A stretch of DNA of 64,000 bases. Origin: Acidimicrobiia bacterium. Lineage in GTDB: Bacteria; Actinomycetota; Acidimicrobiia; Spongiisociales; UBA5794. Shown piece after piece: positions 19,093 to 23,270 of the stretch. Each line of letters starts with the position of its first letter. Within the stretch, counting starts at the first letter, position 1. The stretch covers positions 62,001 through 126,000 of the forward strand of contig DASWKR010000035.1 of assembly GCA_036396535.1 (NCBI GenBank), given 5' to 3'. The translations under genes were made by a program, and so were the position numbers. Below the pieces are notes generated by a model. It did no database searches. It was not told the DNA's origin and was given only the letters and a program-made list of their open reading frames with translations.

Positions 19093-19374
19093 TCAGCTGG
19101 CGCGCCGCTCCCGGTCGCGCAACCGGCGGCGGAGGCGACGCCGCTCGGCGCCGGTCATGCCACCCCAGATCCCGTCGGTCTGGTTGGTGGCGAGGGCGTA
19201 CTGGAGGCAATCCTCTCTGACGGGACAGATCGCACATACAGCCTTGGCCGGCGCGGCAGCCTCGTCGTCCTCCCCGATGGGGAAGAAGAGATCGGTGTCG
19301 GACCCGGCGCAGGCGGCGTGGTCACGCCACGAGCCATCCGGCTCCCACAAGATGTCCGAGAGCGCCATCACCAT
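19093..19374 (-). CDS. WhiB-family iron-sulfur transcription factor
   Basis: A 93-residue WhiB-like (Wbl) protein. The four Cys that hold the 4Fe-4S cluster are present in HAACAGSD and CAICPVREDC. The G-I-W-G-G turn (TDGIWGGMTGAERRRLRR) is followed by a basic DNA-contacting tail. Wbl proteins bind region 4 of the principal sigma factor. DLFFP and the pattern around WEPDGSWR resemble the WhiA/WhmD-like WhiB group, but I do not assign a subclass. The start at 19374 (MVMALSDILW) is used, with ATG 19368 equally likely. A strong hairpin lies 60 bases upstream. Confidence 0.92.
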   Translation of the reverse strand: MVMALSDILWEPDGSWRDHAACAGSDTDLFFPIGEDDEAAAPAKAVCAICPVREDCLQYALATNQTDGIWGGMTGAERRRLRRRLRDRERRAS

Positions 19375-19433
19375 GCGCTGTATCCACCCTTCTTGGCTCT
19401 TCTCTAGAGCTCCGCTCGAACTCGCAACAAGCA

Positions 19434-19466
19434 ACGGACCGGGTTTGTTCCTTCCTCCCGGTCCGT
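19434..19466 (-). promoter_or_regulatory. 10-bp hairpin in the leader of whiB / behind bpa
   Basis: ACGGACCGGG (19434-19443) pairs exactly with CCCGGTCCGT (19457-19466), with a 13-base loop that is purine-rich (AGGAAGGAA) on the minus strand. It lies 60 bases before the whiB start and 133 bases after the bpa stop. It may end bpa transcription or control whiB. Confidence 0.5.
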
Positions 19467-19598
19467 CAAGCCCGCCTGACCTGGGGTTTCGCGTCACAAT
19501 TGGCGCTTCCTGGGCCCTGCGACCTACAACGTAACGCGTTCTTCGCGCTTTGGGAAGGGTGAAGCGCCTGTGCGGCAGGAAAAGGCCAGCTCAGCGTG

Positions 19599-20094: not shown

Positions 20095-20940
20095 TTACAA
20101 GCGGCGCGGCTGCGGACCGTCGTCCGTGCCGTGGAGGTCCGTCGTGGACGGCTCGACGTGGATCGTCCTCTCACCGTGGACGTGCCGTCCGGCTACCGGC
20201 CGATGAGCGGGGTCGTCGACGAAGAGGCGCTCGCCGTCGACGTGGAGCACCGCGGTCCCGTATGCCATCCCCAGGTTCTCCTGGGTGAGCACCTCGGCAG
20301 GCGGTCCGCTCGCCACGACGGCGCCGGCAAGGAGGAGGACGTGGTCGGCGTGCTGCGCCTCGGAGAGGTCGTGGGTGCTGATGACGACCGAGCACCCGCG
20401 GCGCTGCTCGTCGTGGATGACCTCGTCGATGGCGCGGGCCGACACGATGTCGAGCCCGGTCAGGGGCTCGTCGAGGAGGAGCACGTCGTGGTCCTGGGCG
20501 AGCCCCTGGGCGACGAACACCCTCTGGCGCTGGCCACCGGACAGGTCGTGGAGGTGGCGGTCGCGCTGATCGGCGAGGCCCATCCTGTCGATGGCATCGT
20601 CGACGAGGGCACGATCCGCCGGGCCCAGCCTCCTGTACCGCCCGACCGTGCCGTAGCGGCCCATCGTGACGACTTCGTGCACGGTCACGGGCAGGGCATC
20701 GTTCACCTTGGTGACCTGGAGCACATAGGCGATCCGCGCCTCTGCGCCACCAGGTGTCCGTATCACAAGCGTCCCCGACGCCGGCTCGTGGAGGCCGGCG
20801 ATGGCGTTGAGCAGTGTCGACTTGCCCGATCCGTTCGGGCCGATGAGAGCGGTGACCGACCCGGCGGGAATCTCGAACGACGACCGGCTGAGCGCCTCGA
20901 CCTGGCCGTGGAGGAGAACGATGTCCGTCGCCGTCACCAT
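20095..20940 (-). CDS. Zinc/manganese ABC transporter ATP-binding protein (ZnuC-like)
   Basis: A ~281-residue ABC ATPase. Walker A is GPNGSGKST near residue 42, the ABC signature is LSGGQRQRVFVAQ near 145, Walker B is DVLLLDEPLTG near 168, and the switch His is in STHDLSEAQHADH near 200. TVHEVVTMGRYG is typical of the metal-uptake subfamily. The ~40-residue C-terminal tail is His/Asp-rich (VDDPAHRPVAGRHVHGERT), which may bind metal. ATG 20940 is used. GTG 20946, overlapping the zur stop, or ATG 20952 are alternatives. It is co-transcribed with zur and works with ZnuA/ZnuB across the divergent promoter. Confidence 0.85.
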   Translation of the reverse strand: MVTATDIVLLHGQVEALSRSSFEIPAGSVTALIGPNGSGKSTLLNAIAGLHEPASGTLVIRTPGGAEARIAYVLQVTKVNDALPVTVHEVVTMGRYGTVGRYRRLGPADRALVDDAIDRMGLADQRDRHLHDLSGGQRQRVFVAQGLAQDHDVLLLDEPLTGLDIVSARAIDEVIHDEQRRGCSVVISTHDLSEAQHADHVLLLAGAVVASGPPAEVLTQENLGMAYGTAVLHVDGERLFVDDPAHRPVAGRHVHGERTIHVEPSTTDLHGTDDGPQPRRL

Positions 20941-20942
20941 GC

Positions 20943-21377
20943 TCACGCGCATCGGGAGCACCGCCCTTCGATCTCCAGCGAGTGATCCGTCGGAGTGAAC
21001 GAGGCTGCGGTGGCGACGTCTCGGATGATGCTGGTGAGTCGTGTCTCGTGTCCTTGGGGAATCTGGATGTCCTCGACCGACCCGCAGTTCACGCAGACGA
21101 GGTGGTGATGGTGGCCCGCCAGCCACTCGGCCATCTCGTAACGCGTCAGTCCGCGCGCTCCATGATGCGGAATGACCACGCCGGCCTCCTCGAGCACGTT
21201 GAGCGATCGGTAGACCGAAGAGAGCGGCATGCCGAGCTCGACGAACAGCTCGGAGGCCGACTTGGGTCCATCGGCGCTGCTCAGCGCGCCGATGAGGGCC
21301 CTACGACCACGGGTGTACCGCACGTCCCGGTCTCGCAATCTCGACTCGATCTGTCGCTCGACGCTCGCCGTTGGCAC
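20943..21377 (-). CDS. Fur-family metal regulator, probably Zur
   Basis: A 144-residue Fur-like repressor. The N-terminal winged helix has YTRGRRALIGALSSADGPKS and a LSSVYRSLNVLEEAGV recognition helix. The dimerisation domain has GHHHHLVCVNCGSVEDIQIP and a final CSRC pair for structural zinc. The GTG start has a GGGGGAG Shine-Dalgarno. Position between znuC and a divergent znuA, and an operator within the shared promoter, support zinc sensing. Manganese or iron sensing is less likely but not excluded. Confidence 0.85.
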   Translation of the reverse strand: MPTASVERQIESRLRDRDVRYTRGRRALIGALSSADGPKSASELFVELGMPLSSVYRSLNVLEEAGVVIPHHGARGLTRYEMAEWLAGHHHHLVCVNCGSVEDIQIPQGHETRLTSIIRDVATAASFTPTDHSLEIEGRCSRCA

Positions 21378-21393
21378 GTAGCACTCCCCCTGG

Positions 21394-21399
21394 TATGGT
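21394..21399 (+). promoter_or_regulatory. Extended -10 box of znuA, leaderless
   Basis: TGGTATGGT gives an extended -10 (TATGGT at 21394-21399). Seven bases follow, then the GTG at 21407. This spacing starts the transcript on the start codon itself. No Shine-Dalgarno is available. Confidence 0.55.
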
Positions 21400-21406
21400 T
21401 TCGAAC

Positions 21407-22411
21407 GTGAATGATAACGGTTCTCATTATAGGCAGCAAGTCGAGAGGGTCACACGCCCGACGGGAACACGGCGCGGCGCCTGGCTCCTGGCCGTGCTCG
21501 CCGTCGTCGCCCCATCGGCGAGCTGCGGTGGCCCGCCGGACGGAACTGCCGATTCGCTGACGGTCGTGGTGACGACGACGCCGCTCGGTGACCTCGTCCG
21601 CAACGTCGTAGGCGAGGCGGCCACCGTCGAGGTGCTCATGCCGGTCGGTGCAGACGCTCACGAATTCCAGCTGTCCGCCGAGCAGGTGGCGAGGCTCGCC
21701 ACCGCCGACCTCGTCGTCGTCAACGGGCTCGGCCTCGAAGCCAGGATGGAAGACGCGCTCGAGACGATCGACGGCGCCAAGGTCCTCGCGCTGGCGCCGC
21801 TGCTCGACCCGCAGCCGTTCGACCTCGACGCCAGCTCGGAACCCTGCGACCCGACGGCGAGCCAAGACGACCACGAAGGCGATGCGTGCGACCCGCACGT
21901 GTGGACCGATCCCCTGAGGATGGTCGACGCCGCCCGGATCGTCGGCCGGCGCCTCGACCAGCTCGACCCCTCCGCCGACTTCTCGGCGAGGGCGGACGAG
22001 TACGCCGCCGAGCTGATGAGGGCCGATTCGGAGATCACCGAGATTCTGTCTGTGGTCCCCGCCGGGTCTCGCAAGATCGTCACGAACCACGAGGCCCTCT
22101 CATATTTCGCGAGACGCTACGAGCTCGACGTCATCGGAGTCGTCATACCGGGGGGATCGACGCTGGCGGCCCCGAGCTCGGCGGAGCTGGCAGCCCTCGT
22201 CGACGTGATCGAGGAGGCCGGGGCGCGCGCCATCTTCGCCGAGACGGTCGAGCAGTCGGCGCTCGCCGAGGCGGTCGCTTCGGAGGTCGGGGACGACGTG
22301 TCCGTCGTCGAGCTGTACACAGAGTCACTGGGTGAGCCCGGCTCGGGTGCAGACAGCCTCATCGGGATGCTGGTGACGAATGCCCGACGGATCGCCGAGG
22401 CACTCGAATGA
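21407..22411 (+). CDS. Zinc ABC transporter substrate-binding lipoprotein (ZnuA/TroA-like)
   Basis: A ~334-residue cluster A-I metal-binding protein. The basic N-terminus and GAWLLAVLAVVAPSASCGG suggest a lipoprotein or secretory signal (candidate Cys in SASC). Ligands are seen as GADAHEFQLS (His), DPHVWTDP (His), NHEALSYFARRY (His) and a distal acidic residue. A short acidic/His loop DDHEGDACDPH precedes the second ligand, as in zinc-binding ZnuA. GTG 21407 is chosen because it sits at the predicted transcript start. ATG 21395 would lie within the -10 box. Confidence 0.85.
   Translation: MNDNGSHYRQQVERVTRPTGTRRGAWLLAVLAVVAPSASCGGPPDGTADSLTVVVTTTPLGDLVRNVVGEAATVEVLMPVGADAHEFQLSAEQVARLATADLVVVNGLGLEARMEDALETIDGAKVLALAPLLDPQPFDLDASSEPCDPTASQDDHEGDACDPHVWTDPLRMVDAARIVGRRLDQLDPSADFSARADEYAAELMRADSEITEILSVVPAGSRKIVTNHEALSYFARRYELDVIGVVIPGGSTLAAPSSAELAALVDVIEEAGARAIFAETVEQSALAEAVASEVGDDVSVVELYTESLGEPGSGADSLIGMLVTNARRIAEALE
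21410..21428. promoter_or_regulatory. Zur-type operator palindrome shared by znuA and zur-znuC
   Basis: AATGATAACGGTTCTCATT: the half-sites AATGATAAC and (on the other strand) AATGAGAAC agree at 8 of 9 bases around a central G at 21419. It resembles Fur/Zur boxes (TGATAA-type halves). It covers bases 4 to 22 of the znuA message and overlaps the zur -10 box. Confidence 0.75.
21426..21431 (-). promoter_or_regulatory. Consensus -10 (TATAAT) of zur-znuC
   Basis: A perfect TATAAT on the minus strand. TGTGAC stands 17 bases upstream of it as a -35 candidate. The operator overlaps the -10 box and the expected start point, so the repressor would control its own gene. Confidence 0.6.
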
Positions 22412-22451
22412 CATGCCGCCACGTTCTCGAGCCATCTACCGTCGCCACCTC

Positions 22452-23270
22452 ATGGACTGGTTGATCGCTCCGTTCGAACTGGCGTTCCAGCAGCGAGCCC
22501 TCATCGGAGGCTCGCTGGCGGCGGTCGCCCTCGGCGTCGTCGGGACCTGGGTCGTGATCCGCGGGATGACGTTCCTCGGCGACGCCCTGGTGCATGGCAT
22601 CATCCCGGGGATTGCCCTGGCGATCCTGCTCGGCTTCAACGTGCTCGTGGGGGCGCTCGTCGCCGCCGTCGTCATGATCGCCGGGATCAACCTCATCCAC
22701 CGGCAGACGGCGTTCTCGGAGGACACCGGGATCGGCCTGCTCTTCGTGGGCATGCTCGGGGTGGGGGTGATCCTCGTGTCTCGCACCGATTCGTACAGCG
22801 GCAACCTGACGAGCATCCTCTTCGGAGACGCCCTCGGGGTCACGACCGGCGACATCGCCCTTCTCGCCGCCGTCGCCGCGGTGACCCTCATCCTGTCGGC
22901 CCTCTTCTTCAGGAGCTTCCTGGTGCTGTCGTTCAACGAGCAGAAGGCCGAGCTGCTCGGCTTGCGGCCCAGGCTGGCGCACGTCGTGCTGCTATCGCTC
23001 GTCACGATGACGATCGTCGGCTCGTTCCAGACCGTCGGAACGCTCCTCGTCTTCGGGCTCCTCGTGGGCCCGCCGGCGACTGCGGCTCTCCTCGTGAGGC
23101 GGGTGCCGGCCATGATGCTCCTCGGGGCAGGCATCGGGATCTTCTCGGTCGCTGCCGGGCTCGTCGTCAGCTATCACGCCAACACGTCGGGATCGGCGAC
23201 GATGGCGGTCGTGCCGATCGTCCTCTTCTTCTCGGCCCTCGCCTATCGGACCCTCGCACGGGCGGCGTGA
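22452..23270 (+). CDS. Zinc ABC transporter permease (ZnuB-like)
   Basis: A ~272-residue membrane protein of the ABC-3 family with 7-8 helices. MDWLIAPFELAFQQRALIGG is the family's usual beginning and fixes the start at 22452. ATG 22413, next to the znuA stop, is an alternative. Other landmarks are FLGDALVHGIIPGIALA near residue 40, LFGDALGVTTGDI near 122 and VGSFQTVGTLLVFGLLVGP near 195. It forms the channel for the ZnuA/ZnuC system and follows znuA in one operon. Confidence 0.9.
   Translation: MDWLIAPFELAFQQRALIGGSLAAVALGVVGTWVVIRGMTFLGDALVHGIIPGIALAILLGFNVLVGALVAAVVMIAGINLIHRQTAFSEDTGIGLLFVGMLGVGVILVSRTDSYSGNLTSILFGDALGVTTGDIALLAAVAAVTLILSALFFRSFLVLSFNEQKAELLGLRPRLAHVVLLSLVTMTIVGSFQTVGTLLVFGLLVGPPATAALLVRRVPAMMLLGAGIGIFSVAAGLVVSYHANTSGSATMAVVPIVLFFSALAYRTLARAA

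Follow-up and report, generated by a model that had tools for sequence, protein, structure and literature searches.

How one short palindrome can serve two opposed zinc-uptake operons while lying inside the predicted coding sequence of one of them is the question raised by a locus of an Acidimicrobiia bacterium, analyzed here in a window of 64,000 nucleotides (contig DASWKR010000035.1). The 19-bp near-palindrome AATGATAACGGTTCTCATT, with 8 of 9 base pairs symmetric, starts directly 3' of the znuA GTG (21407-21409) and is placed between the divergent zur-znuC and znuA-znuB genes, the start codons of which are separated by a 29-bp gap (21378-21406; Table 1). We read this arrangement, with a probability of roughly 70%, as an interlocked bidirectional control of zinc uptake in which one operator would act on two opposed, overlapping promoters by polymerase exclusion and znuA would be leaderless. 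The control region appears to be built from parts of known kinds; its interlocked layout, which recurs among relatives, appears to be new.

Table 1. Positions of the genes and control elements of the zur/znuA locus in the window.
Feature	Position	Strand	Basis or remark
znuC/aztA-like ATPase	20095..20952	-	Family search; overlaps the end of zur
zur, Fur-family regulator, GTG start	20943..21377	-	Domain, fold, context
znuA -35 TTGGCA	21371..21376	+	Reverse complement of zur codons 1-3
GGGGGAG, probable zur ribosome-binding site	21384..21390	-	Sequence
znuA extended -10 TGG-TATGGT	21391..21399	+	Promoter scan, relatives
znuA, zinc ABC transporter substrate-binding lipoprotein, AztC/ZnuA-like	21407..22411	+	GTG at predicted transcription start
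19-bp operator AATGATAACGGTTCTCATT (Zur-type box)	21410..21428	.	Conservation; 18/19 core identity to the C. glutamicum cg0042/cg0043 Zur site
zur -10 TATAAT	21426..21431	-	Promoter scan; 3-base operator overlap
zur -35 GTGACC	21448..21453	-	Spacer 16, 4/6, weak; within znuA codons
znuB/aztB permease	22413..23270	+	AztB equivalog above cut-off; start uncertain, 22413 or 22452

The palindrome was accepted as a real operator because it is conserved; its symmetry alone is not significant and was rejected as evidence, since the window holds 32 equally symmetric 19-mers. A matrix made from 56 relatives, with the window excluded, scored the site at 29.9 bits compared with 1.6 bits for the second-best place in the 64-kb window, and the site was the sole match at up to 2 mismatches in the whole 3.13-Mb genome. 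For the comparison, zur loci were gathered by protein search from 60 relatives (55 with a match), 138 genomes of the order (89 with a match at 1e-35) and a named genome collection (80). Removal of duplicates gave 103 non-redundant loci, 70 of which had a divergent znuA within 300 bases; the 33 others, some of them owing to contig ends, were excluded from the counts, and several of these had no operator. The operator was present in all 70 loci with a zur/znuA pair. Each of the 57 training loci scored between 20.4 and 34.2 (best equal-length coding control, -1.0), and 13 later loci outside the matrix scored between 20.7 and 32.1. A stricter pattern with at most 1 mismatch was found in 53 of 137 sampled genomes of the order and its reversed control in 0. 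The original prediction had proposed a Zur-type operator common to two opposed promoters, to be checked by comparing palindrome and codons among relatives; this comparison supports it, with the operator in 70 of 70 loci and the codons fixed by it. At 3 mismatches the genome contained 5 further sites, compared with 1 per strand for the reversed control pattern; no second operator target is claimed in this genome, and a wider regulon within it was rejected on this count.

In an alignment of the 70 operators, the half adjoining the zur -10 carries 16.4 bits and is better conserved than the half at the znuA start, which carries 10.8 bits. In L006, L008, L009, L010, L049 and L050 a pair of operator-like boxes is spaced by about 21-23 bases, and in several of these relatives the upstream one overlaps the -10 of znuA; the window has no such second layer. 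L012 retains the operator and its divergent gene is apparently the permease directly, with znuA not found in the stretch.

Analysis of positions 21300-21600 with a consensus scan revealed exactly two promoters, TTGGCA-17-TATGGT on the plus strand and GTGACC-16-TATAAT on the minus strand (mean of 0.0 in 50 shuffles). The plus-strand -35 is followed at a spacer of 17 by the extended -10 TGGTATGGT, and 7 further bases lead to a predicted +1 at 21407, on which count the operator would begin on base 4 of the znuA message, just past the start point as originally proposed. The same arrangement was traced in the relatives. The reverse complement of the first zur codons reads TTGNCA in 30 of the 70 loci, and TANNNT follows at a spacing of 17 (13 loci) or 18 (14 loci) in 27 of these 30, compared with 0 or 1 of 30 loci at any other spacing (5-30 bases counted). 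This peak at 17/18 identifies the zur start codon region as the znuA -35. Among the 27 promoter-call loci, 26 (all except L049) have a -10 whose first base lies 11-18 bases ahead of the operator, and placement of the operator immediately past the predicted znuA start appears to be the rule in this group. We also examined the zur codons in 67 of the 70 loci. Of these 67 loci, 41 had a codon 2 ending in A, compared with 10.6% of codons in gene bodies, and where it encodes Thr it was ACA in 18 of 27 loci compared with 42 of 435 in gene bodies. This bias is consistent with a znuA -35 and by itself no proof of one; a preference for A near starts may contribute, and A-rich second codons could in their own right aid translation.

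The promoter prediction puts the +1 on GTG 21407 itself, and the frame from this codon runs open through the operator to the lipobox MNDNGSHYRQQVERVTRPTGTRRGAWLLAVLAVVAPSASC. A 5'-terminal ATG or GTG suffices for leaderless translation in mycobacteria, according to the accessible text of PMC4633059. The starts of znuA, classed by hand, placed the operator inside the open reading frame in 16 of the 70 loci and upstream of the start codon in 51, with 3 ambiguous (L011, L021 and L022). The start that follows the operator in these 51 relatives often has a Shine-Dalgarno-like stretch, and the window retains GAGAGGG past the operator, as would be expected if znuA were transcribed from further upstream, or translated from GTG 21494, with the operator in an ordinary 5' UTR. 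We regard this alternative as unlikely. GTG 21494, the only downstream in-frame start, would leave a signal of 11 residues, none of them basic, and of the other in-frame starts ATG 21395 lies within the -10 and TTG 21371 within zur. Moreover, L020, from another family of the order, has an ATG followed by the operator as codons 2-8 at the spacing of the window. An ATG or GTG 12-15 bases past the first base of the -10 was found in 6 of the 7 promoter-call loci that lack a usable downstream start compared with 2 of the 20 others (Fisher P = 0.0006), with ambiguous loci grouped among the 20 and ambiguous L011 as one of the 2. A leaderless znuA, as originally proposed, is thus supported as a prediction, with the +1 on GTG 21407 favored by the comparison across relatives.

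The operator coincides with znuA codons 2-7 and the first base of codon 8, in agreement with the earlier assignment to codons 2-8. These codons are AAT GAT AAC GGT TCT CAT TAT, and 6 of 7 end in T (P = 3e-5 for the T-ending excess) in a gene with a GC3 of 0.87, which indicates that the DNA site and not codon preference set them. Codon bias and comparison with relatives together support the idea that the operator constrains the ZnuA sequence. The residues concerned precede the lipobox Cys and should leave with the signal peptide, and their removal would explain why such a constraint is tolerated at low cost.

On the opposite strand, the zur -10 shares only 21426-21428, or 3 of its 6 bases, with the operator. 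The original prediction that the palindrome covers the zur TATAAT therefore held as an overlap and failed as full cover. In 21 of the 70 loci an exact TATAAT stands at this register, from operator plus 16 to plus 21, and in 34 one with at most 1 mismatch. A spacing test for the zur -35 gave no clear peak across relatives. The predicted zur start point lies at about 21419, near the operator centre.

Initiating RNA polymerase normally covers about -55 to +20. For zur-znuC, transcribed leftward, the operator would be centred near the +1 and overlap the -10, and for znuA-znuB, transcribed rightward, it would extend from about +4 to +22 with its centre at about +13. As the operator falls within the polymerase-covered region at both promoters, one dimer could exclude polymerase from both. 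Under the preferred reading, a metal-loaded Zur-like dimer on the single operator would switch off both promoters, mainly by excluding RNA polymerase. At low zinc the dimer would leave the DNA and both transporter arms would be made together with the repressor. The znuA mRNA would begin at its GTG and be translated leaderless with the operator as codons 2-8, and the first codons of zur would double as the znuA -35. The promoters are oriented toward each other with footprints that would overlap, so that they probably compete even without the repressor.

The earlier proposal that each gene is blocked in its own way was not supported. It assigned promoter occlusion to zur and a true downstream roadblock to znuA, with polymerase starting and then stalling on the dimer. 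In the window the whole operator does follow the predicted znuA start point, and the distance of 11-18 bases from the -10 in 26 of 27 relatives fits such a block. However, an operator from +4 to +22 is inside the usual initiation footprint, where exclusion is at least as likely. At lac O1 an operator shortly after the start point prevents initiation; that operator sits in an untranslated leader and serves one promoter, whereas the window operator, similar in position, would be coding and serve two. The authors of the Corynebacterium glutamicum Zur study also read promoter-overlapping Zur sites as preventing polymerase entry, in the accessible text of their report (PMC2823685). We consider a roadblock at znuA improbable and retain polymerase exclusion at both promoters.

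The metal to which this control responds was judged from the regulator and its neighbours. The regulator matched Pfam FUR with 65.3 bits, its AlphaFold model had a pLDDT of 89 and Fur-family structures topped the matches. Fold search was uninformative for separating Zur from Fur, as Foldseek ranked Fur, PerR, Mur and Zur together. The regulator misses every NCBIfam cut-off, including that of the Zur equivalog PRK11639.1 (24.9 bits versus 167). Its Cys4 structural site (C95, C98, C140 and C143) was invariant in 28 aligned sequences, and the sequence and this alignment revealed no Cys besides these four and hence no sensory-site Cys; E81, W85, G88 and H89-H92 were also invariant in the 28 regulators. 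The composition suggests a sensory site of His and Glu only. In the known cases covered by the accessible part of PMC6103462, the major Zur sensory site, of N2OS type, always has one sulphur ligand. The missing Cys and the similarity of the fold to Fur and Mur are what would be expected of a Mur- or Fur-like regulator acting on a transporter for manganese or iron.

Fur-type boxes, too, resemble motifs of the AATGATAACGGTTCTCATT type. The genes under control nevertheless point to zinc. The permease passed the cut-off of the AztB NCBIfam equivalog (297.1 versus 280), and AztA and AztC were the best families for the ATPase (214.7, below 220) and the substrate-binding protein (254.2, below 350). 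Glu as the third ligand of the substrate-binding protein sets manganese and iron apart from zinc, which has His; alignment with zinc-binding AdcA, on the AdcA ligand numbering, gave His as the third metal ligand of ZnuA. The best PDB sequence match of the regulator was M. tuberculosis Zur/FurB (2o03), and a Zur box is present at the zinc transporter of the zur/znuA locus. The core of this box matches, at 18 of its 19 positions, TAATGATAACGGTTATCATTT, a proven Zur site listed for cg0042 in Table 1 of the C. glutamicum study, the accessible text of which includes a 40-mer of the cg0042-cg0043 gap among the gel-shift probes used with purified Zur (PMC2823685). We give little credence to a manganese or iron sensor and conclude that the regulator probably works like Zur; the name is a putative one that rests on the operator and the gene context.

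Other homologues were noted alongside. Seven loci (L030, L031, L083, L085, L087, L102 and L103) encode distant regulator homologues, 40-46% identical, without an adjoining znuA or a strong operator and possibly with another function. Two loci on other contigs of the same genome (L002 and L003) matched the beginning of the znuA domain over short stretches of DNA and are perhaps paralogous metal-binding lipoprotein genes. The window also encodes, at 19093-19497 on the minus strand, what is presumably a WhiB-like small protein with HAACAGSDTDLFFP.

Comparison of the 70 loci further revealed that the operator is read in different ways. In the window, L007, L020 and L067 it is read as hydrophilic codons (e.g. 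NDNGSH or NDNSSH), and in L055, L056, L078, L082 and more loci it serves in another frame as signal-peptide code (e.g. MLRTILIIG). On a tree of the 70 ZnuA-plus-Zur sequences, the state with the operator inside the gene requires 10 changes, at least 6 of them forced by well supported branches. Only the sisters L007 (inside) and L039 (downstream), joined at a fork with support 100/99, aligned well enough to follow a change of start, the groups with L067 and L004 aligning poorly. The operators of these sisters are nearly identical; L007 has CTG where L039 has its downstream ATG, and nothing in L039 corresponds to the upstream ATG of L007. We see somewhat better than an even chance that zur and znuA are mutually embedded across this Acidimicrobiia order and that the znuA start has repeatedly crossed a fixed operator, turning a repressor site into signal-peptide code in more than one frame. 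In such an arrangement the zur start region would be the znuA -35 and the first znuA codons the operator, with the zur -10 adjoining in some loci. The loci form a natural series in which one stretch of DNA would be operator, promoter and code and close relatives differ in where translation starts. Such a series makes it testable why genes turn leaderless and how far a regulatory site dictates protein sequence; the start codon of znuA is also easy to annotate wrongly in these genomes.

As far as we have seen, three elements appear to be new: an operator in the codons of its target gene, a promoter embedded, in many genera, in the start of the other gene and the repeated shifting of the start codon across a fixed operator. 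No account of an operator that lies within the codons of its leaderless target gene was found in the accessible open-access literature, subscription journals lying mostly outside this scope. Divergent leaderless genes with one Zur site and a gap of 29 bp are already known from C. glutamicum cg0042/cg0043. There, as in the window, the cg0041-cg0042 and cg0043 zinc ABC-transporter operons diverge from a near-identical single Zur site with 29 bp between the start codons and leaderless transcripts, the latter predicted here. In the accessible text of that report, Zur binding was shown by gel shift, the start points were mapped by RACE or predicted, and the zinc response was followed with a reporter (PMC2823685). 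The two loci differ in that the C. glutamicum site overlaps the core promoters, whereas the window operator lies past the znuA start codon and inside the open reading frame. The regulator gene is elsewhere in C. glutamicum (PMC2823685) and one of the divergent pair in the window, and the window zur, unlike the C. glutamicum genes, has a predicted leader that would start inside znuA. The locus shares with Zur-regulated znu operons in general a Fur-fold repressor with a Cys4 structural site, a palindromic box and a zinc-uptake target; in those operons, as covered by the accessible text, boxes often lie over the -35 and the regulator has the sensory Cys ligand that is absent here (PMC6103462). 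Leaderless messages, opposed genes and operators are likewise combined at lambda cI and Tn1721 tetR (PMC3848588) and PaaR2 (PMC8630535), in the accessible parts of these reports. At lambda cI and Tn1721 tetR, however, it is the repressor gene that is leaderless (PMC3848588), whereas in the window the predicted leaderless gene is the target and carries the operator in its codons.
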